NCBI GenBank assembly: GCA_025201375.1
Contig: JAIWZP010000003.1
Span: 372,001 to 436,000, forward strand
Origin: Gongronella butleri
Taxonomy: Eukaryota; Mucoromycota; Mucoromycetes; Mucorales; Cunninghamellaceae
DNA length: 64,000 bases
Direction: 5' to 3'
The position numbers and the translations under genes are program-made. This document shows positions 3,453-58,074 of the stretch, in pieces. Numbering within the stretch: the first letter of the stretch is position 1; each line of letters opens with the position of its first letter. Below the pieces are notes generated by a model. It was not told the DNA's origin. It saw nothing but the letters and a program-made list of their open reading frames with translations, and did no database searches.

Positions 3453-5617
3453 ATGGCATCCAATGGCACGTCATCGTCGTCGGTGTCGATTGGGTATGCG
3501 TCGTACCAGCAGCAATACCTTGGCTCCGGGGACTATGCACCCAACGACGTGGCGTCGATGGTGCTGTTTTTCTCGATTATTGTGTTGCTTGTTGTGTCGT
3601 TTGCGTTTTACTTTTGGTTTACCGAGTGGTACAAGATTGCGCCGCAGCAGCGGCACGAAGAGGGCCTGGAGCGGCAAAAGGAGGTTGACCTGCTCGTCGA
3701 CAATATCAAGGACCAGGTCAAGGCGGCGTTCAAACTGCCTATTTTGTCTCTGGCGATGATTTTTTATCATGGCGCGTTCTTTGCACCGGCTTATCCGCCA
3801 TTATTACTGCACCACCACCACCACCAGCCGTCGCCTATCTCGAAATCGCCATCATACTATTACCCGGCTGGCTCACCCACGCAAATGTTGCAAATGTCGT
3901 CGCCCTTACCATGGCACGCTTCAAAGCCGCCGCAGCAACCATCGCCGCCACATCTTGCGAGTCTCGCGACATACCTTGCGCCGCCGCCTCCCGCGGCTAC
4001 GGCGACCCGCACAACCATTGTATCGCGCGAACAGCACAATGTGTGGGCGCACCGCTTCCACCATGCATTTTCGCTCGCTTTTCTCGTCGGCATCTTGGTC
4101 GCTGTGATCATGCTTCTTGTGGCCGTCGGGCAACCGGCCGTGCCATCGACCTCGGCCACATTGCAGGCGGCCCTATTTCTCCTTGTGCTGTGCATCAATC
4201 TGTTTTTAATCACGCGGCAGCGGTTTTATTATCGGCAGCGCAAGCAGCTGTTTGGCGATGATGACGCGCACATGAATGCCATCTACAAGACACATTTTGA
4301 CGATTGGGACCACACGCTGGCCAATTGGATCCAGCTCGCCATCCTCGTCATCGAGTTTTTCCAGCTGCTCACTTTTCCCTTGCGGGATCTCATCACCGTC
4401 AATTCATTCGCTTCGTCCGCGTCCACCGCGTCCTCTTCATCATCATCTTCATCCTCCTTTTCGCGCTTCATGTCCCTTTTGCTCAATGCTGGCGGGCTAA
4501 TGCCGGACATGCGCACACCCGTCTGGTACACTTATACCCTGTGGTCGACTTTTATCGTCACCGCCATCAGCCTCCTCGTCGCCATCTTGGTCCACGGCCT
4601 CAACACCTGGCAGCCTTACAAAGTGCCCAACCGCTGGGTCCGATGGTGCCTACCTGTTGCTGTAAGAACGCGTCTTTTATTGACTTTTTCTGATTTTTTA
4701 CGCGTTCATCCCGATTCACGTGCTCAATTTCATTTTTATCTATTGTAGACGCTCCTTTACATCCCTGTCTTGGTTCGTGCATGCCTCATTGGCAATTTCA
4801 ATGGCGCGCGTAAAGACTCATTTCCTTGTTTTTCTTTGTTTTTTTTGGATGTAGACGACATTTGTAAGCTCGGCGGCGTGCCAGTCCCTGAATGTGGCGA
4901 CCAATGACTATGCACCGACGCTGCGATGCCATGCAGACAATATTTCGCAACAATTGTATCTTTGGATGTCCCTGATCGGCTATGTAATTGCTTACTTTCT
5001 GATGACCATGTTCCTTACGAGCTACGAGCGCATCCCCCTGCGAAATGAAATTGCCTTCAAGTCCATCAGCGTCGCTTTCATCAAAAATATGGGCAAGTTC
5101 ATGTTTTTTTTTTAAAAAAAAAAAAGGGAATGACGTGACGCTGACGCCATTTTTGATCTACCAGGCTTGCTTCTTGCTATTGTGTTTTTACTTGTCGAAT
5201 CGACGACCAACAAAAATAGGTTGCGCGCCATTCTGTCCATCATCATTCTGCTGACGATGATCTGCTACAACATCAAAACACGACCATGCTACGTGGACAA
5301 GGTAATTTTTTCGTGTGACGCGTCAGCATTTTCTAATCTTTTGGTTTTAGGTCAACTTTTTTCGCACTGCGTCGTTCAGCTGCATCTTGTGGACCTCTGT
5401 TCTTGTAGCGATCCTCAGCGACACGAATGCTGCGCAGAATTTGAGCCCATTGACTGTGATTTGCGTGATTGTTGGCGGCTGGATCCTCATCATCCTATTA
5501 TTTATTGCCTTGTATTGCATCTATTATCGCACATCGACCAAGGCATCCACAGCATCCACACACGGGGATTCCTCATCAACTTCTTCCTCATCCTCTGCCT
5601 CAATAGATTGTACATAA
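3453..5617 (+). CDS. Multi-pass membrane protein of unknown function
   Basis: I do not recognise the family. Proposed exons: 3453-4661, 4749 to about 4772, 4855-5092, 5165-5301 and 5351-5617, giving roughly 620 residues. The protein has about ten hydrophobic segments: one near residues 32-53, several between 200 and 385, and a cluster in the last exons (for example LYLWMSLIGYVIAYFLM and VIVGGWILIILLFIALY). A His/Pro-rich loop (residues 110-180) and a Ser-rich loop (near 320-335) separate them. The tail is Ser/Thr-rich, consistent with a cytosolic end. The second exon is uncertain: running it to 4809 breaks the frame, whereas a GTTCGT donor after 4772 keeps it. The intron 5093-5164 appears to use a GC donor (GCAAGT). 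A transporter or sensor role is possible but not supported. Confidence 0.7.
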
Positions 5618-6713
5618 TTATTAAAGCTCGCAAAAGTCGGTCGCCGCTTGACACGGTCGATGGAAATCTCAATTTTCTTGACACTCCTCATCAATGGCTA
5701 CAAGGTTGTTGCAAATTGGTCAACTGCTTTGCGCGTCGCAAATAAAAAAAAAAAAAAAGAGGATAAAAAACCAAAAGGCACGGAGCCAAGGATGCATTTT
5801 TTTAAACATGCACTTGTGGTCAGCTTACATTGACCAACATCGTTGCACGGATCTTGCTTGTAGATATGTTTTTTATTAATATCAAAATTGTATGAATGTT
5901 GGCGCTAGATCAACGAAAACGCACCACCTTCGCGATTCCTCGTTGCATCTCGCGTCTCTCATGCTTCTTCATGTGTGGTTAAAATTTTGACTCTCTGCCG
6001 CGCTTCGTCGTTTAGAAACGACGCGTCTCGTCAAAGTTGCATAAATCCGGCACAGTTCAGCAAAAATTCGTCGCCCTCGCGTTTCCTTAGCATATATCGC
6101 GTCTTTGACGATTGCTCTTGTGTTGTTTAAAGTTGGAATGTCTGACACGCTTCGTTGTTGAGAATTGAACGCGTCTCATAAAAATTGCATAAATTGGGCA
6201 CAAGCTCAGGAACCCCCCATCGCCCCTTGCGTTTCCTCGGCACATTACGAAAAAGAAACGACCAACAACGATCACATCCCAATGCTTGCAGATAACACCA
6301 CGCAAGGTTCAATGGGCATGATCAAAAAACCGCCAAAAACGGTTAAAAAAGTCCTGTCGCAGGTTGACTTTCTTTTTTTGTTGCACTCTTTGATGTGCAA
6401 TGTCGTCTCAGGACTTTGTGATTAGCAATTTTTTTGTCGCATTACGTAAACCTCGCTACGCAAAGCGCTCGATTGACAATGGACGCATCAAGTACACCTA
6501 AAAATCATCACCCATGATTATTGTAGAGAAAAACTTGCTCAGCTGGTCCCAAATTTGAACCAGACAAGTGGACTTTTTGGCAAATACACTCGGATGTGCA
6601 CGTATTTGAGCGGCTAGTACACAATGCAGCATTTCATAGGTAAAACGAGCATTGCTGCGGCAAGCGCGTATTTTATCAATTCAAAGGCAACTTTTTTTTT
6701 TCAGGGAAAGAAT
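5618..6713. other. Intergenic region between convergent genes
   Basis: Lies between the 3' ends of the membrane-protein gene and the dehydrogenase gene. It contains a degenerate tandem repeat (5929-6243, listed separately), A-rich runs and no supportable reading frame. Confidence 0.5.
5929..6243. repeat. Degenerate tandem repeat, period about 147 bp
   Basis: Two full diverged units and a partial third. The landmark CGCTTCGT occurs at 6001 and again at 6148. The landmark resembling CTCGCGTTTCCT occurs near 5931, 6077 and 6227. Between them both units contain a TTGCATAAAT block followed by GGCAC. A related partial copy lies at 47593-47674. Confidence 0.55.
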
Positions 6714-48220: not shown

Positions 48221-49194
48221 TTACATAGTGTTAAATTTAGTGAAGTGTTGTCTATAATTGTTCTCGCAATTTGTGATAATGTCTACGAAGTATTTTGGGT
48301 CAATCAAGCTCAACGCGTTGTGAAATCGCGTTGTGGTTGTGGCGTCACTTGCTTTTTGGCTAAACTTCACGACCATTTCCTTCCAAAACTGCTGACATGG
48401 ATCTAATTCGCAATCGATGTGAGGAATTCTCAAGTACTTGAAACCATTACTAATCGCATGTTGTTGAACAACAACGTTCTTGTCCAAGGACAAGCCGTTT
48501 ACTATGATGTAACAGCCTTTGTAACCTTGCTTCAGCTGATCCAACGAATCACACAGGAATTTGCAGTACTGATCGTCATGGACATTTTATGGTGTGGGAC
48601 TTGCAATCTAAAATTGGCGACACCAATAGAACAAAGTGCGACCATGGCCCTTCGCGTCTGTTGAGGGGCTTTTGGATGGGTTGCGGCTGACGAGTAAGGA
48701 ATATGCGAATTGAACAAGTCGAACGTGGTTTCGCCGAAAAAAATGCAGTTTTGCAAGTAATTCATGGTCGGCTCTGACCATCCAATAAGGAACTCGTCCC
48801 GTTCAGCGGCTACATCATAATGAACAGGTAGAGAAACTGGACGCAATGACAAGGAGATAGAAAAATCGTTCTTAATACAAGTGCTAATGGCGGATTTGGT
48901 GATATCGAGATCCATGAATTGGTCACAGAGATCTTTGTGGATGTCAACGATCGTCAAATTTGCGTTGTTGTCGCCAATGCGTGCTTTGATGTATGCCTTA
49001 TGTTCATCACTAATCTGGTTCTTTGCGGCCGCCTTCTCGGGTTTCTTAAGGCTGGAGAATTCCTTGTACCATCGATTAACACTACTCGGTGGCATTCCAA
49101 ATTTCTTTGCTGCAGCACGGCCACTGGCACGAGTTTCCAGCATGTAATTGATCACCTCGTTCTTTTTTTCTTCAGAGAGATGAGACTTCGCCAT
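48221..49194 (-). pseudogene. Decayed transposase of the IS630/Tc1-mariner superfamily
   Basis: Reads on the minus strand from 49194 in one frame to 48532 and continues in another frame to 48221; the shift falls near 48560-48600. The N-terminal half has a helix-turn-helix: ASGRAAAKKFGMPPSSVNRW, then a KPEKAAAKNQISDEHKAYIK linker and a second helix region. The C-terminal half looks like a DDE domain, but the first and second acidic residues seem replaced: a Gly stands where FxDE is expected (CIFFGETTF) and another in YIIVNGLSLD. The third acidic site may survive in LDPCQQFWKEMV. I see no terminal inverted repeats. It is probably an inactive relic, less likely a domesticated gene. Confidence 0.7.
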
Positions 49195-49322
49195 TGAAAC
49201 GTAAAAATATCAAAAAAAGGGCCTGCGCAAAGACTACAACAACACAAACATCACCTTTGAAATACTGTGCCCTCGACGTGCCGCGCGCCAATTGTGCCGG
49301 CATTTTAGAAAAGTCGTGCAAC

Positions 49323-51017: not shown

Positions 51018-51817
51018 GCCGCATGCTGTATTTTTTTTTGTTTTTAGGTAGTGTTACACCGACTTTTTGACGCTCGTTCTGAGCGCTCTCGTGCCTGCGG
51101 AGATGGCAATGCATGGCAGATGGTAGGATGGCAAGATGGTGCCGCACACACGCTGTTAATCCTGCGAAGGGTGAAAAAAACGCGTGTCGCGCCATTTTTG
51201 TCGTGGCTCAAGCAAGGTGACACGAACTCTCGGGTCAACATGGCCGGTGACACGAACAAGACGCGTGTCGGCCAATGGAGCCGTGATGTTTCCTTGCGCC
51301 AATCAGAAAACCCAGTTTCCGAAAGTTTCGAAGGCGCATAGCTCTGCAAAATAAAAGACAACGCGCCAAGGTCTGGCGGGCAAAAGCTGCTCAGAATCGG
51401 ATTCTATACACATCTCCTTGATCAGTGACGCGCTAAAATTCAAAAATGCACGCGGAAAACGCGCAAAAAGGATTGCATTAATCAGGATGCCGGAAATGGC
51501 ACTTTTCAACCGCGTTTATCTCGCGATTTCATGAGGCAAGGCAGCAAGATTGATTCACAAAGTTGTTTAGAATGGTTTTCTCTACAATTGCTCTTATCAT
51601 AACCAAGCTCTCGCAAAATAATCAAAAGCGCGAGAGCAATCGCTGCACAAAGATTTTTGGCTGTAAAAACACGATTTTGTGCACCATGGCCACTCGCAAT
51701 TTCCAATTTGCCCGTGAAACATGAATGGTCAATGCCAGAAAGTAGACTTTTATTGATTAATGCAGCGATTTGCTGCAAGCAACATAAAAGTAACCAATCC
51801 AATGCCCTATTTGTCGG
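49700..51817. other. Intergenic region without a recognisable gene
   Basis: About 2.1 kb after the minisatellite. A run of about 28 A lies at 50990-51017. The minus-strand frame at 51506-51802 is Leu-rich but has no family features and runs into the neighbouring gene's 3' flank. Nothing further is supported. Confidence 0.45.
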
Positions 51818-52225
51818 TCAGATTTCACCTGCATTGGACGCGTTATCACGCATCCAGAGCAGGTAATCACTATCTGGATGGACGCGCAATGCTTCTTCAA
51901 TGAACATGTTTGCAACTCGTTCATTGCCGCCATCTTTTTCACATTGGACAGCCAAGATCCAAAGCCTTTCTTCTTGTCGGTGGTCTTGCAGCAAGCTTCG
52001 GATGGTGGCGCGGCGGTCTGGGAGGGGCAGATACTGCAGTTCAGGCAATATGCGACCGATGACCATGTTTGCAGCTGTGGACAGTTGGGGAATAGTTGGT
52101 GGTGCCGGCTGAGTGGGTGATTGATTGCCTTGAGACGTGCTTGCTGCTGTGTTTGCGCGCTGATCTGACGCCGGGGCGCGTGGAATGGATGCCGGGGCAC
52201 GTGGATTCTTCTTCTTTTTGGCCAT
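51818..52225 (-). CDS. Small protein of unknown function, divergent from the Fanzor gene
   Basis: Single exon, 135 residues. It starts at an ATG followed by a basic Lys run (MAKKKKNPRAPAS). A duplicated RAPAS motif and a Ser/Thr/Gln/Pro-rich linker follow to about residue 48. The C-terminal 85 residues look folded and helical: AANMVIGRILPELQYLPLPD, RRATIRSLLQDHRQEERLW and NERVANMFIEEALRVHPDSD. The pattern is reminiscent of a TPR-like helical hairpin, but I do not recognise a family. An upstream in-frame extension exists but is Phe-rich and unlikely to be coding. The start is 555 bp from that of the Fanzor gene, and a CCAAT box lies between them. Confidence 0.6.
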   Translation of the reverse strand: MAKKKKNPRAPASIPRAPASDQRANTAASTSQGNQSPTQPAPPTIPQLSTAANMVIGRILPELQYLPLPDRRATIRSLLQDHRQEERLWILAVQCEKDGGNERVANMFIEEALRVHPDSDYLLWMRDNASNAGEI

Positions 52226-52401
52226 CGTTGTGAGGAAGTGAAAGAAAAACATGAGAAAATGGACTTTTTGCTCTTTTATTTTTATTATTATTAGCCTTGA
52301 TCGTGGTGTCGGTGGCATCGAATCAGCCTTGGCCGCGGATATCCGCCTGCCACAGCGTGAAGATGAGGACATGACATAAATCAAAGAAGTCGGAGTTTCG
52401 G

Positions 52402-52406
52402 CCAAT
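52402..52406. promoter_or_regulatory. CCAAT box between the divergent small gene and Fanzor
   Basis: CCAAT followed by C in GGCCAATCAG. It is 177 bp upstream of the minus-strand gene and 375 bp upstream of the Fanzor ATG. A TATA-like TATAAG lies at about 52565 on the Fanzor side. Confidence 0.3.
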
Positions 52407-52780
52407 CAGAGCAAAGGAGCCTCGCGGCGCAGCGTGCGGCGGCTAGTTTTGTGAAAAAAACGAACTGTTTTTCTTTTCTCGTTTCTCTTTTCTTTATCCT
52501 TGTTTCCGGGTCTCCATCGTTTTCCTGTTTTCTTTTCTTTACATTTCCTCTCCACCTTTATTGTATAAGTCTCTTCTCCAGCAAATATCGTTGTTTGATT
52601 GGCGCCATGGACGTGCCCCTGATCGGCCCTGGCCCCCGGCCACGCAAAGCCGTTTTGTGCGCTGTTTTTCGCGTTTTAATCCACCTACCCGGCACCATTT
52701 ACGAGCAGCGCACTGCCGACGTGACTGAAATGGCGTTTTTCTACTCAATTTCGATTGCTCAAGCTTTTCAACTTATAACG

Positions 52781-55700
52781 ATGGCCGACAACGTGCGCCG
52801 CGGTAAGTCAAAACAATCAAATAACGCCTGACACAAAGTCTCATTTCTCTTTTTGTTTAGAACGTGATCACCCGCCCTGTCCAGCCTGCCATCAACCTGG
52901 CCATCGATCGCGCGCGGATCCAGATTGTCCAATGAATCAGCAAAGATTGCGACGTAGGCCATCGAGAGAGAAAGAAAAAAAAAAAAGAGAGACGGAGAGA
53001 GAGGACAGAAAGCTCACGACGCGTCCTACATTTTTTTTAGGCGCCGCCGGACGCCGCGGCAATCAACGGCACCGGGACAGAATTCGCAATACCCAGCCCC
53101 AGCAATGCGCATCTTGCAGACAGATGGGGCACCGCGACAGACGCAGCCGCCTTTGCCCGTTGCATGTGCCAACAAAGCTGGAATACTTGAATGACCTGAT
53201 GCCGTTGCGCGAAAAGTACACAAGATTCTGCTCATTGGAGCAAGGTGTACGACCGGAATTTCAAGAGCACTTCCGCCGCCAAGCGATCGCCACGTCGGAC
53301 GCCATTCGTAACACATTGTTGCGCGCGCAGCTTTTACTCTCGGATTTCGTGCTCTCGCATCCAGGTGCGGACATTTCCTTTTTCTTTAGCGAAAATGGCA
53401 TGTACCAGCTTACGCGCTTGATCCGAGACAAGCTTGACGGCCAACAGCGGGATATTTTTCCGCCAGCTCTTATTCACCATTGGACGACCTCATTCTCGAC
53501 AAGATTCCCAGCCGCCCACACCACAGCTATTGATGATATCCACATGACAAATGCACTGACTCACGCGTGCACCGAGATTGGTACAAGCAACAAGGAGCAC
53601 GCGGATCGGCTGCCGCTGCGCGTGAAAAGCTTCATCAAGTTCCGCCTTTTGGCGATTCTCAAGGATCGCGGCGTAAGTCCCCTCTTTTTTTTTTTTTTTC
53701 TGCGATGCGTCTAGCTCATCTCTCTCTCTCTCTCTCTCTCTTTCTCTTTCTCTCTCTCGCTAGGTGCGGACGTCACCAATGCGCGACGTACACAGGGCCG
53801 TGGACCATGTATTCGAGCAAGTGACCCATTCGCTTCCTGATGCTCCCATGGCACCGCCGGAGCCCGAAGAGGACGATGATGTCGTCACAGAGGATGTGGA
53901 CGACGACGACGACGACGACGATGGAGATGTGGATGCACCGGGCCGCCGCATGCACGCGCGGCAGCAGGCGATTCTTGAAGCAATGGGCGTCATTTACGAG
54001 GAAGTTCAAGCCTTCAAACCAGAAGCACTCGGGACGCTTGACGAAGAAACGGTGCATGGTCATCCCTCTGCCTCCATCACCATGCAGGCCTCTTTTTTAC
54101 GAGTGTACGACCACTACAAGGCGCTGCACAACGACGATAACGACGACGATGAAGAGGGACCATCCATTCGTGTGCCGTCCTTCACGATCCTCCCAATTCC
54201 ATCTCGACATCGACGTTTCGTGACAGTCGTCCCTGAAAACATTGGCACTTTAGCGGGCATTAGCATTCCGCACCGGCAACTAGACAACAATCCGCAGCCA
54301 GCTTTTATCGATTCGTTCACCCATTTTTGGCGAGTTTTCAACATGCAAAAGTGGGGGTTTCCAAGGTATGAATCAAGAAATGAACAAAAAAAAAAAAAAA
54401 AGACACACTGACGCGTGTTTTTTTTATAGCCTGGATGCCATGCAGCGCTCGGTTTTCGTAGGCCACGTGTTTGACGCGATGGTGCGAACAGACGGCGTAC
54501 AGGTGCACTTTGTTTTTACAAGAATCAAAGCGCGTTCGCAGCCACCCCAAATCAAGGAACAGGACGTAGCCAATCGCGTGGCCATAGAGCATACAAGCGT
54601 GGGTATTGATCCTGGCCGGCGCACGATCATCACGGCATCTTACCAGGCGCCTGAGGATGACGACGGAGATGCGACGGGCCCAAGCCCCATTCGTCGTGTG
54701 GGCCTAAAAGAATGGCAAGTGGTCGCAGGCGAAAAGGCCAGAGAAGATCAATACCGGCGTCGATTGCGGGCAGCAGGGCGGTTGGACCACGAGATCCCAG
54801 AACATCGCACCGCCATCAACGAGACCTTTCACGAGTATATCACGCACCGCCTTGTCAATGAAGCCGACGACACCGCATTCTTCTTTGCCGACGACCATGC
54901 CGCCGCACGCTTCGAGGCGCGCAAGGGCAAGCAACGCGCCGTAGACCATGCAGCCAATGTCATCACGTTTGGTGGTCGCAAGTTTTCAGAAAGAGGCCGG
55001 CGCCATACCAAGCGCAACCGCAAGCAGCGCCATTTCCGCGCCATGCGCAAGCGCCGCCTGCGTCTCATGGCTGCCCACGACGCAAATGCCGCCACACAAG
55101 CCCACCATGACCAGCTGGATTCAATGATCCAAGGCCTGGACGCTTACGTTCAATTGCTGCATTCCATGGACACCGACCCCACCGTCTCAGGCATCATCCA
55201 ACAAACCCACCGGCAACGCCAAGACCTCCAAGACATGCAACGCGAAGATCAAGGCACAATGGCAGCCCGCATAGCCCAAGCCACTCAACCATCATCGTAA
55301 GCAACAAGTGGGGTCGGTGCATTGGACCGTGCCGCCATTGGATCTCTTACTTTTTTCTTTTTTTTCTTAGGCCAATGCGCGAGAGCAAGCGCCAGCGCCA
55401 CGGCACGTGGAAGAACGTCGCCGCAAACCCCAAGATCATCTTTTACGGCACTGGCCTGATGGGTCAACGAGATCAAGCCCGTGTCGGCCACATGCCTGCC
55501 GGCCGCAGCGAGCTTGTACGCCAAAAACTTCACGAACGCCAGTCACAAGGCTTCTGCCTTGTCGTCCACACCGATGAGTATCTGAGCAGCCAAGTAAGCA
55601 TATGATGGAAGCAAAAATCAATCCATTGCTCATCTTTTTTCGTTGTTTTTGCTTCTTTTTTTATAGGTCTGCAACTCGTGCACATCCCGCCTTGACAATT

Positions 55701-55855
55701 TCGGCAATGTCTTCGCCCTGAAACACTGCGTCGAAGAGGCCATGGTCATCAATCGTGACGACAATGCCGCCACTTGCATCCTTCAAACTGGCCAGCACCA
55801 GATGCAGCATGGGTCCCGTCCATTTGCCCTCCGACGTCCACCACCCAGCCCATGA
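52781..55855 (+). CDS. Fanzor: eukaryotic TnpB-like RNA-guided nuclease
   Basis: Fanzors are eukaryotic relatives of IS200/IS605 TnpB; characterised members are RNA-guided DNA endonucleases. Seven exons: 52781-52802, 52861-52953, 53041-53672, 53764-54365, 54430-55296, 55371-55593, 55667-55855; 875 residues, phases consistent, all GT-AG. The N-terminus has two CCHC knuckles with identical C-x2-C-x4-H-x7-C spacing (Cys14/17, His22, Cys30 and Cys61/64, His69, Cys77). A long helical region and an acidic insert (near residues 285-310) follow. The RuvC nuclease has Asp510 in SVGIDPGRRT, Glu808 in HTDEYLSSQ and Asp844 in NRDDNAA. Between them is a basic stretch (RRHTKRNRKQRHFRAMRKRR) that could bind nucleic acid or act as a nuclear signal. 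The zinc finger after Glu808 has CNSC but only one Cys in the second half (KHC). Length suggests the Fanzor1 class. An in-frame ATG at 52607 could extend the start. Confidence 0.87.
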
Positions 55856-55894
55856 TCAATTTTATACCCAATATGCAGCCAGCAGATTCTGGTT

Positions 55895-55913
55895 TCTCGC
55901 CTGAGTAGCGAGA
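55895..55913 (+). other. Perfect 6-bp hairpin in the Fanzor 3' flank, possible guide-RNA element
   Basis: TCTCGC at 55895-55900 and GCGAGA at 55908-55913 pair perfectly around a 7-nt loop, starting 40 nt after the stop codon. Known Fanzor and TnpB guide RNAs come from the 3' end of the gene and its flank, so the position is suggestive. A donor-like GTAAGTG follows at about 55934, and an acceptor-like AACAG lies near 56021. No terminal repeats of a transposon were recognised. Confidence 0.3.
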
Positions 55914-56152
55914 TTTATGCCATTACAATGGTAAGTGAAAAAAAAAAAGCAAAAGCAAGAACAGAACGTGGACGATTGATCAATTTTTTTTCTCTTGACT
56001 CAAATTTTGTAACAAACAGTAATAGGCGCGCGCTGAGATGCTTTCCCGTCGTAGTTTTCCCTTTTGCATATTTTCCATTTTGATTCGTTTTTAAATCATT
56101 CTTGTCACGACGAAAACATACAGCGGCTCTTTTTTTTCATTTATTGAAAGCT

Positions 56153-56788
56153 TTAATGCAAGCGTGAGGATGACAAGAGCAGCGGCTGCTGCTTTTCAAG
56201 TGCGGCGTGGCCATAATGGTACGGTTCTGCCGGCCCGGCCAGGTATAAAGAGGAGGTGGTATTCGTGTTTGTGTGTCCCAATCGATAGGGGGAGCACGGG
56301 TCAAGGTAAAGTTGTTGCTGTAGCTGTTGTTGCTGTTGATGCTGGACGGCCAACGACGACGACGACGACGAGCCCGTGTGCCGGCTTGTTTCGTGGCTCA
56401 GCGATGGCATTTCCGCGAAATCAATGTGGTGTCTTCGGCGGCTGCAGCGCGTGCCCCTGTTTTTCGCGTGCCGCTCGCGCTGCTGCTCCAATCGAACCAA
56501 ATACTCGGCTTCATAGTCGATTTCCGGATCAATGGGCAACGGCTCGTCGCTAAAATACCCAAGCTCCTTGAAAAAGAAGAGGTTGCATGGCGATGCGCAG
56601 CAGCAATGATTGCCAGCATCAATGCGCGTCTCTTCAGGCACAAGCGGCACAATGTCCATCATGTCGTCCACAAATAATTGGACGTCGTCGTCAAAGCACA
56701 CGCATTGGTCGGCTTCGTCGTCATCGTCAGCGCAATCAGGCTGCTCATCGCATGTCAATGTAAGGAATTCAAATTGAAATTGATCCAT
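56153..56788 (-). CDS. Low-complexity protein of unknown function
   Basis: Single exon, 211 residues, convergent with the Fanzor gene. I do not recognise a family. The N-terminal 60 residues are acidic with several Cys (CDEQPDCADDDDEADQC), then VQLFVDDMMDIVPLVPEET. A short Cys cluster (CCCASPCN) precedes LFFFKELGYFSDEPLPIDPE and a charged helix (EAEYLVRLEQQRERHAK). The rest is Ser/Gln/His/Tyr-rich and looks disordered (SSSSSSLAVQHQQQQQLQQQ). The ATG used is the first in frame; its upstream region is a purine-rich leader with long A and T runs. Expression and function are unknown. Confidence 0.6.
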   Translation of the reverse strand: MDQFQFEFLTLTCDEQPDCADDDDEADQCVCFDDDVQLFVDDMMDIVPLVPEETRIDAGNHCCCASPCNLFFFKELGYFSDEPLPIDPEIDYEAEYLVRLEQQRERHAKNRGTRCSRRRHHIDFAEMPSLSHETSRHTGSSSSSSLAVQHQQQQQLQQQLYLDPCSPYRLGHTNTNTTSSLYLAGPAEPYHYGHAALEKQQPLLLSSSRLH

Positions 56789-56886
56789 TGGAAGCAAAGG
56801 ATGCTGTGAAATAGCAAAAAGGGGGAAAAGAAAGGGAAAGAGTGGAAAGAAAAAAGGAAGGGCGAGGGCAAGTGAATTGGAGAGTC

Positions 56887-56918
<32 letters not shown>

Positions 56919-58074
56919 ACAGAAGGGTATCTTGAAGTGGCAAAAAGTAAGAAATTACAAAAAAAAAAAAAAAAAAAAAACGAACGAAAGGCAGGGCTCC
57001 CTGCTCTTTTTTAGGGATCAGAAAGGACGGGTTGGACGGGAAATCAAGGAACAAACAACAGGGCATCATCGAAAATGAGTCTTTCCGCATCACACCAATC
57101 AGTCACTTTAACCCAATCTTATCTGCGCAAGGGCCCAAATGCTTTATTTCTTTTTTCGACAACTGCATTTCGCTCGCTCACCCCCCTCCGCTCTTCTTGC
57201 ATGTCCACGAATTTCTCCGAGCAAACATCTGCAAGGAAAAAAAAAAAAACAGACGCGCGGATCGACAATTGCCCTTTTTCTCGGGCACAGCGTTTCGTTT
57301 GGCCATGAGACGTGTCGCAGCCCCCTGGCACTCATGTTTGTGCAAACCAATTGGCCGATGATCCGGGGTGTTGGCATCAAAACAGACCATGGAGCTGACG
57401 TGATCATCCAAAAAGCAAAGAAATACCATAAAAAAAAGAAGGGAGAGAGACGGGCGCTTTTCTTTTCACCCCACTCCAGGCGCCCGGTCCGCGTATCCAC
57501 CACTGAACTTGATGTGTTGTCGGTCTCTCCTGCGGCATTGGTGATTGTTTGCGTCGGGAGTGATCATTTTTGGGTAAAAATGAAAAGGTACAAGCTTTGA
57601 ATTGCATGACACGCGACCCCCAAGGAACCAATCCTTTTCAAAGGCTGCCAACGGCACTTGGATCTTGCAGTTGACAAGGCCAATTCCCCCTTTCCCATGG
57701 TTCCTCGCGCTCATTTTGATGTGATTTCCAAGGAGTTTCTTGGTTGTGCCCTCCCCCATGGGGCTCTTGTCCATGACCAATGGCAAACGAAAAGCCAGGG
57801 AATCCTTGGATGGTTCTTTTTCAAGGAGGTCCAAGCCCCACTGCGGACTCTTGTGGATCCTAGCTGCTTTGCCAAGGGGTGCCACGCCTTTCATTGATCG
57901 ACCTGCCAGCCAAATGAGCATAGGCGGGCGCGTGATCCCTTTTTGGGTCGCACGGTGGAGATTGGTTGCCACATTTGGTGAACGGGGTCAGCCCAATTCG
58001 TTTTTTTTTTTTTCTCTGTTTCTGCGCTTCTGTTTCTTTTTTTCTCTTTTTCGCTTGATACAGTGTTCTTTGCT
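56789..58074. other. Intergenic region between divergent genes
   Basis: About 1.3 kb with poly-A runs of 28 and 20 near 56887-56914 and 56960-56980. CCAAGG-like hexamers are frequent between 57620 and 57890. A minus-strand open frame of 168 codons (57466-57972) has no family features and is not called. Confidence 0.45.

Follow-up and report, generated by a model that had tools for sequence, protein, structure and literature searches.

This locus of Gongronella butleri raises the question of whether an intron-rich fungal gene encodes a Fanzor, a putative RNA-guided nuclease, and from where such a protein would obtain its guide. The gene lies near the end of the window, meaning the whole 64,000-nucleotide stretch of DNA that was analysed (contig JAIWZP010000003.1, positions 372,001 to 436,000).

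Gene structure, family and history of the window Fanzor

Joining 52781-52802 to exons 2 to 7 listed below yields a protein of 875 residues plus a stop codon, with no internal stops. All six introns, of 58-91 nt, have GT..AG boundaries. The seven exons, six introns and intact frame of the original prediction are confirmed, as are the positions of its three acidic residues, D510 (GIDPG), E808 (TDEYLSS) and D844 (NRDDNAA), in the joined protein. The ATG at 52781, however, is probably internal. A further ATG at 52607, in frame with it, lengthens the protein by 58 codons. This added stretch, set against the corresponding frame of the C25 copy (itself broken in frame close to its start), shows 70% amino acid identity and a dN/dS of 0.18 over 56 codons, and a comparable N-terminus is found in C23, C25:200k and the Hesseltinella protein P0002. 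Since the extension evolves like coding sequence and is paralleled in relatives, translation probably starts at 52607, giving 933 residues. In blastn, an upstream match to the C25 copy covers 68 nt at 79% identity and a second match begins at 52606. The gene and its upstream region are as follows.

52378-52606, + strand: upstream region that aligns in part with the C25 copy (52378-52443, containing CCAATCAGAGC)
52607-52802, + strand: exon 1, including the 58 codons before the 52781 ATG (in frame; C25 comparison)
52861-52953, + strand: exon 2, first Cys/His cluster (joined frame, paralogs)
53041-53672, + strand: exon 3, second Cys/His cluster (Pfam zf-CCHC_6, E 0.05, below cut-off)
53764-54365, + strand: exon 4, acidic linker (joined frame, paralogs)
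54430-55296, + strand: exon 5, RuvC-I GIDPG (D510), then a basic region (dN/dS 0.19 against C29, 158 codons)
55371-55593, + strand: exon 6, ending in TDEYLSSQ with the alternative glutamate E808 (dN/dS 0.12 against C29, 74 codons)
55667-55855, + strand: exon 7, zinc-finger remnant (C815, C818, C834, E837) and NRDD with D844 (dN/dS 0.09 against C29, 58 codons), with the stop codon at 55853-55855

The protein was predicted to carry the TnpB/Fanzor RuvC pattern, and its D-P-G at RuvC-I, alternative glutamate and RD order agree with this. D-P-G is invariant in all five rows of profile A2, and the RuvC-III aspartate is present as NRDD. However, E808 stands six residues ahead of the first CxxC (E808-YLSSQV-CNSC) and is not the usual TnpB RuvC-II glutamate; an alternative, repositioned glutamate is typical of Fanzors, unlike most TnpBs (PMC10711439, partial text). 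In the zinc finger C815, C818 and C834 are kept while the fourth position is E837. This Glu is common to the window, C25 and C29 copies, whereas C45, C23 and C25:200k have four Cys, and the loss is read as a change within the family and a trait of the window/C25/C29 lineage. The absence of a complete C4 zinc finger (TNB) weakens the claim of Fanzor membership for that lineage. TNB (PF07282) does match the joined protein, but below cut-off (E 9e-4; 19.8 of 26.3 bits). It is clearer in the paralogs, matching four of the five A2 members with a best E of 1.9e-9.

Searched against the PDB, the A2 profile matched a TnpB-like L79 (E 1.7e-4) and SpuFz1 (8gkh, E 1.7), in the TNB region only, and the single window sequence gave a best E of 0.38 among solved structures. 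As the match to SpuFz1 reaches only E 1.7, the family assignment rests on motif order and not on overall similarity. The 875-residue query found no match among 7999 scored candidates, and the five-row A2 profile found four proteins. Judged from its sequence, the window gene is a Fanzor with the DPG, alternative-Glu and RD order, and RNA-guided cleavage by its product is putative. The length of 933 residues and the fungal setting suggest Fanzor1 rather than Fanzor2.

The protein itself is ordinary in kind, Fanzor1 having been known in Mucorales since 2013, when it was described in Rhizopus, Phycomyces and Mucor (Bao and Jurka 2013, PMC3627910, partial text). These genes share with the window gene the fungal order, multiple exons, the D..[TS][TS]..zinc finger..RD order and carriage by elements, some of theirs with inverted repeats. 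The window protein differs in its D-to-SS spacing (300 versus their 125-275) and in the replaced fourth Cys of the zinc finger. The word "intron" does not occur in the text of that paper.

The exon structure recurs in paralogs that are each ~33% identical to the window protein. In spliced aligner output, the C45 paralog has the same six junction phases, and its exon 3 contains one frame break. The frame of C23 stays open for 1034 codons and C25:200k has seven exon pieces without stops; the junctions of both match the window gene once spurious aligner introns are taken out by hand. The aligner's introns at L041, L047, L048 and parts of L043 and L044 were likewise spurious and were discarded, and C26:165753, at first a candidate single-exon relative, merely reads through introns.

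Against the C25 and C29 copies the window gene shows purifying selection (dN/dS 0.09-0.19), while dN/dS between the C25 and C29 fragments is 0.61 over 129 codons, as expected from decaying copies. Broken pieces of the multicopy set to which the gene belongs lie at C25, C29, C26 and C88, and among its genome matches the window gene is the sole intact member of its close lineage. The introns and intact frame had been taken to indicate a host-integrated gene and not a fresh bacterial transfer. The introns do argue against a fresh transfer, and purifying selection is borne out, but host integration is doubtful given the multicopy set, its broken pieces and the element-like right end described below. 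For these same reasons the gene is provisionally read as a long-resident mobile-element gene whose left end was not found, neither by motif nor by local alignment (best score 27; 20 shuffles gave 18-28). A host-domesticated Fanzor that no longer moves, with 3' features as relics, would fit the single intact copy among the genome matches, the purifying selection and the failure to find a left end or inverted repeat. It would not account for the broken copies, which are evidence of past spread, nor for the noncoding 3' part being better preserved than synonymous sites, a property that introns 5 and 6 share. Domestication is improbable on balance.

Separately from the coding analysis, introns were found to have changed less than fourfold sites in pairs that diverged long ago, including introns 55297-55370 and 55594-55666 and those of L042 and L044. 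Fourfold sites are the same at 59/106 positions versus 64/70 for intron cores between the window and C29 (Fisher 2e-7), 150/269 versus 148/170 between C45 and C25:200k (2e-12), 17/35 versus 23/28 in the 3' part of the window-C25 pair (0.008), and 75/92 versus 33/34 between C23 and C30 (0.04). No significant difference was seen in the 5' part of the window-C25 pair (16/24 versus 15/19) or in the recent pair C45-C1:9.9k (289/322 versus 117/128). At least half of the fourfold differences are transversions, and CpG contexts account for 13/47 (window-C29) to 54/119 (C45-C25:200k) of the differences; given this share, CpG decay may contribute to the gap.

Several features lie beside the Fanzor genes. 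A broken transposase reading on the minus strand (48221-49209), which we take to be Tc1/mariner-like, sits ~3.4 kb upstream of the Fanzor start and has weak helix-turn-helix matches below the Pfam cut-off; it was considered as part of the Fanzor element and not adopted. A 69-bp repeat at 51750-51818 recurs at 97% identity in the opposite orientation beside the C25 Fanzor copy, and these are its only two places in the genome. With just one other copy, on the opposite strand, it was rejected as a terminal repeat of the element. The C45 and C1:9.9k places (L042, L045) have an upstream stretch in common that reads on the minus strand (1-1350 in L042) like a nuclease, presumably FEN1/XPG.

The right end of the window element

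Downstream of the stop codon, and thus outside the coordinates of the original prediction, the sequence still resembles the C25 and C29 copies for ~165 nt; this resemblance ends at AACAAACAG, followed by TA. Four features are proposed within and just beyond this stretch.

55856-55930, + strand: candidate omegaRNA scaffold, 75 nt, with two predicted hairpins at 55877-55894 and 55895-55913 (conservation, predicted folds)
55931-56019, + strand: proposed terminal intron, 89 nt, with consensus 5' splice site GTAAGTG and ending in AACAAACAG (sequence pattern)
56018-56019, + strand: AG, proposed as both 3' splice site and right end of the element (C25/C29 similarity stops there save for the shared TA)
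56020-56039, + strand: predicted guide, the first flank bases, starting with the TA common to the family copies (rule that the guide starts after the right end)

The proposed terminal intron carries a TTGAC motif ~21 nt ahead of its AG, and the bases right before the AG in the window family are not pyrimidine-rich. Its length is 89 nt in the window, 182 nt in C25 and 1334 nt in C29, where it contains an insertion. Within this C29 intron a further insertion with inverted-looking ends was noted by eye (L040, about 5310-6515). Elsewhere, the 50-nt arms 55613-55662 in intron 6 and 55939-55988 in the terminal intron are 72% complementary, partly through A/T runs, and flank exon 7 and the scaffold.

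The candidate scaffold is 89-90% identical to C29 and C25, compared with 59-66% at third codon positions (with the boundary one base off). Identity reaches 91-96% in introns 5 and 6 and 94-96% over the first half of the terminal intron. As these are at least as conserved, conservation does not single out the scaffold as a functional RNA. One compensatory change, T-A to C-G, was seen by eye in a scaffold hairpin. The lowest-energy folds contain the two hairpins in the window, C25, C29, C23 and C30, and in C45 inside a larger fold; those of C25:200k and C1:9.9k lack the two simple hairpins. Folding z values, given here for five of eight sequences, are weak for the window (-1.1) and C25:200k (-0.6) and better for C25 (-2.0), C45 (-2.2) and C30 (-3.0).

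An intron-less copy of the spliced junction was absent from the genome at up to 3 mismatches, beyond the unspliced copies themselves. The predicted guide has one exact genomic match, its own place, and one match with 3 mismatches. A search of 52000-57000 with Rfam returned no group I intron at E up to 1 and only two weak, unrelated matches.

Recurrence of the 3' architecture across Fanzor loci

The same order of features recurs beyond the window family. C23, C30, C45, C1:9.9k and C25:200k have TAC(A/G)A(A/T)G directly before GTAAG as in the window, preceded by different sequences, and other Fanzor families show a stop, a 3' UTR, GTAAG or GTAAA, 61-126 nt and an AG, in that order. Among 24 tabulated loci (17 of the 20 TNB-profile places plus seven window-family places), GTAAG follows the stop in 22 and GTAAA in two (C39b, C24); for C1:343k GGTAAG was taken by eye from the sequence where the script had given an earlier GTAAA. 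With end motifs chosen by eye, a terminal AG was assigned in 20 of the 24, and none for C1:9.9k, C1:343k, C47 and C28. The GT..AG stretch measures 61-182 nt across loci, save in C29, and in set C the stop and the 5' site are 166-169 nt apart. Of the 20 loci with a terminal AG, 18 have a [CT]T[AG]A[CT] motif 19-34 nt ahead of it, C23 and C15 being the exceptions, a count that has no separate control. No TACAATGGTAAG motif was seen in the parts read of four further window-family places, L041, L046, L047 and L048, which are broken or cut by a contig end.

All ten family representatives have a GTAAG within 180 nt of the stop, compared with 6-19% of dinucleotide shuffles of each and 230/2000 random window segments. 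The full GT-branch-AG pattern is present in 7/10, compared with 2-9% of shuffles and 59/2000 segments. In the GTAAG count set F is scored with a GTAAG other than its terminal one, and set G, an eleventh representative, is dropped as its marker was not found.

The AG also lies at or near the edge of the repeated sequence. For five near-identical copy pairs from four sets (C1/C75/C71, C55/C39a, C23b/C18, C39b/C68), identity is 95-99% where the 100 nt preceding the AG can be aligned and drops to 22-33% in the 100 nt that follow it. Ten pairs from six sets share 0-6 bases beyond the AG, C23 being omitted from the set F pairs because its right end differs from that of C30, so that the proposed AG falls within 0-6 bases of the point where copies lose resemblance. 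The window's own family is less sharp, with 62/86 aligned positions the same before the AG and 26/100 after. Some apparent relatives were set aside, namely the TTTACAATGGCAAGCGA sites, of which the one read by eye (on C51) lacks the architecture, and a TTTACAATGGCAAGTGG site on C45 that lacks it by eye. L062 (C12) is an orphan right end, GTAAGTGAG..AACAG followed by TA, in which the upstream hairpins of C30 are absent.

The left end could be located in set A. There the alignment begins at C1:137368 and C75:42770, with CA before the end and C(A/T)GCAAAAAAAAACTCGC just inside. This end mirrors TTTTTTTGCAG, so the AG there is also the tip of an inverted repeat, and the repeat CTGCAAAA..TTTTGCAG is itself a pyrimidine tract plus AG. 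These observations bear on the main alternative, an ordinary Fanzor1 with a contiguous omegaRNA in which scaffold and right end are kept together, GTAAG belongs to the RNA or arose by chance, and the AG is nothing more than the inverted-repeat tip. The set A repeat alone would account for tract and AG, for SpuFz1 a single omegaRNA that extends across the repeat is described (PMC10432273, partial text), and between close copies the GT..AG stretch is as conserved as the scaffold, not diverging as introns usually do. However, GTAAG recurs in families with differing 3' UTR and end sequences, a stretch of 61-182 nt, expanded by insertion to 1334 nt in C29, would be odd for a scaffold, and in two copies compared by eye the left-end bases hold no mirror image of the CTGAC seen at the right end of set A. 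A contiguous RNA is considered unlikely.

A proposed guide made by splicing

The reading preferred here is that the window gene is a Fanzor1-type mobile-element gene whose terminal splicing would join the scaffold to host DNA as guide, a proposal given about an even chance on the sequence patterns above. A transcript would pass from the Fanzor gene across the right end of the element into host DNA, and the spliceosome would take out 55931-56019. Splicing would then place the two-hairpin scaffold directly against the neighbouring host sequence, the first flank bases thereby becoming the guide of the omegaRNA. Fanzor may bind this spliced omegaRNA and cut DNA matching the flank, such as the empty site left after excision of the element, and cutting of the empty site would favour retention of the element. 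That Fanzor elements of this fungus generally make guide RNA by spliceosomal splicing, with the right end doubling as 3' splice site, is put forward tentatively, at slightly less than an even chance.

The position of the junction is consistent with known systems. The TnpB guide begins with the base beyond the right end (PMC10711439, partial text), and SpuFz1 was seen with a 75-nt scaffold and 14-15 nt of flank as one RNA (Saito et al. 2023, PMC10432273, partial text). With the terminal intron removed, the distance from stop to guide in the window gene becomes 75 nt, like the SpuFz1 scaffold. The proposed system would also resemble SpuFz1 in taking its guide from DNA beyond the right end and in the CA before the left end, found here in two set A copies. 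In contrast to the one RNA across the inverted repeat described for SpuFz1, an intron-like 61-182 nt parts the scaffold from the right end here.

Alternatively, splicing of the terminal intron could serve solely to connect the mRNA with host exons further downstream or with a poly(A) site of the host, with guides coming from unspliced RNA or not being made. An intron of the 3' UTR that runs up to the edge of the element would indeed provide the gene with a host 3' end. This leaves unexplained both why the junction falls where a TnpB or Fanzor guide begins and why predicted hairpins directly precede it in several copies, and such a role is regarded as very doubtful.

Under the preferred splicing-made guide, the guide RNA would derive from the nuclease's own mRNA, as does the TnpB omegaRNA; the TnpB system uses 5' processing by TnpB, and splicing is unmentioned in the abstract of the report (PMC10278001). 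A mobile element joined to a splicing intron is also found in the IStron, an IS element with a self-splicing group I intron that renders insertions harmless (PMC4227781, partial text). Here a short, spliceosomal-type intron is proposed at one end only and its splicing would make a guide; with no group I ribozyme found in 52000-57000, an IStron identity was rejected. In the literature searched, judged mostly by title or the start of the abstract, no report of a spliced Fanzor guide was found, and no paper combining Gongronella and Fanzor. The 3' architecture, which is visible in the sequence and recurs among the loci, is taken as a new variant from which we infer splicing and an omegaRNA product.

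If this is true, splicing at a transposon edge would be a new way of building a guide RNA. The first guide base would be set by an exon junction and the end sequences of the element would be kept out of the guide RNA, so that any DNA beside a landing site would be spliced onto the scaffold as guide. The route from intron-rich Fanzor genes to guide RNA would then become directly testable.
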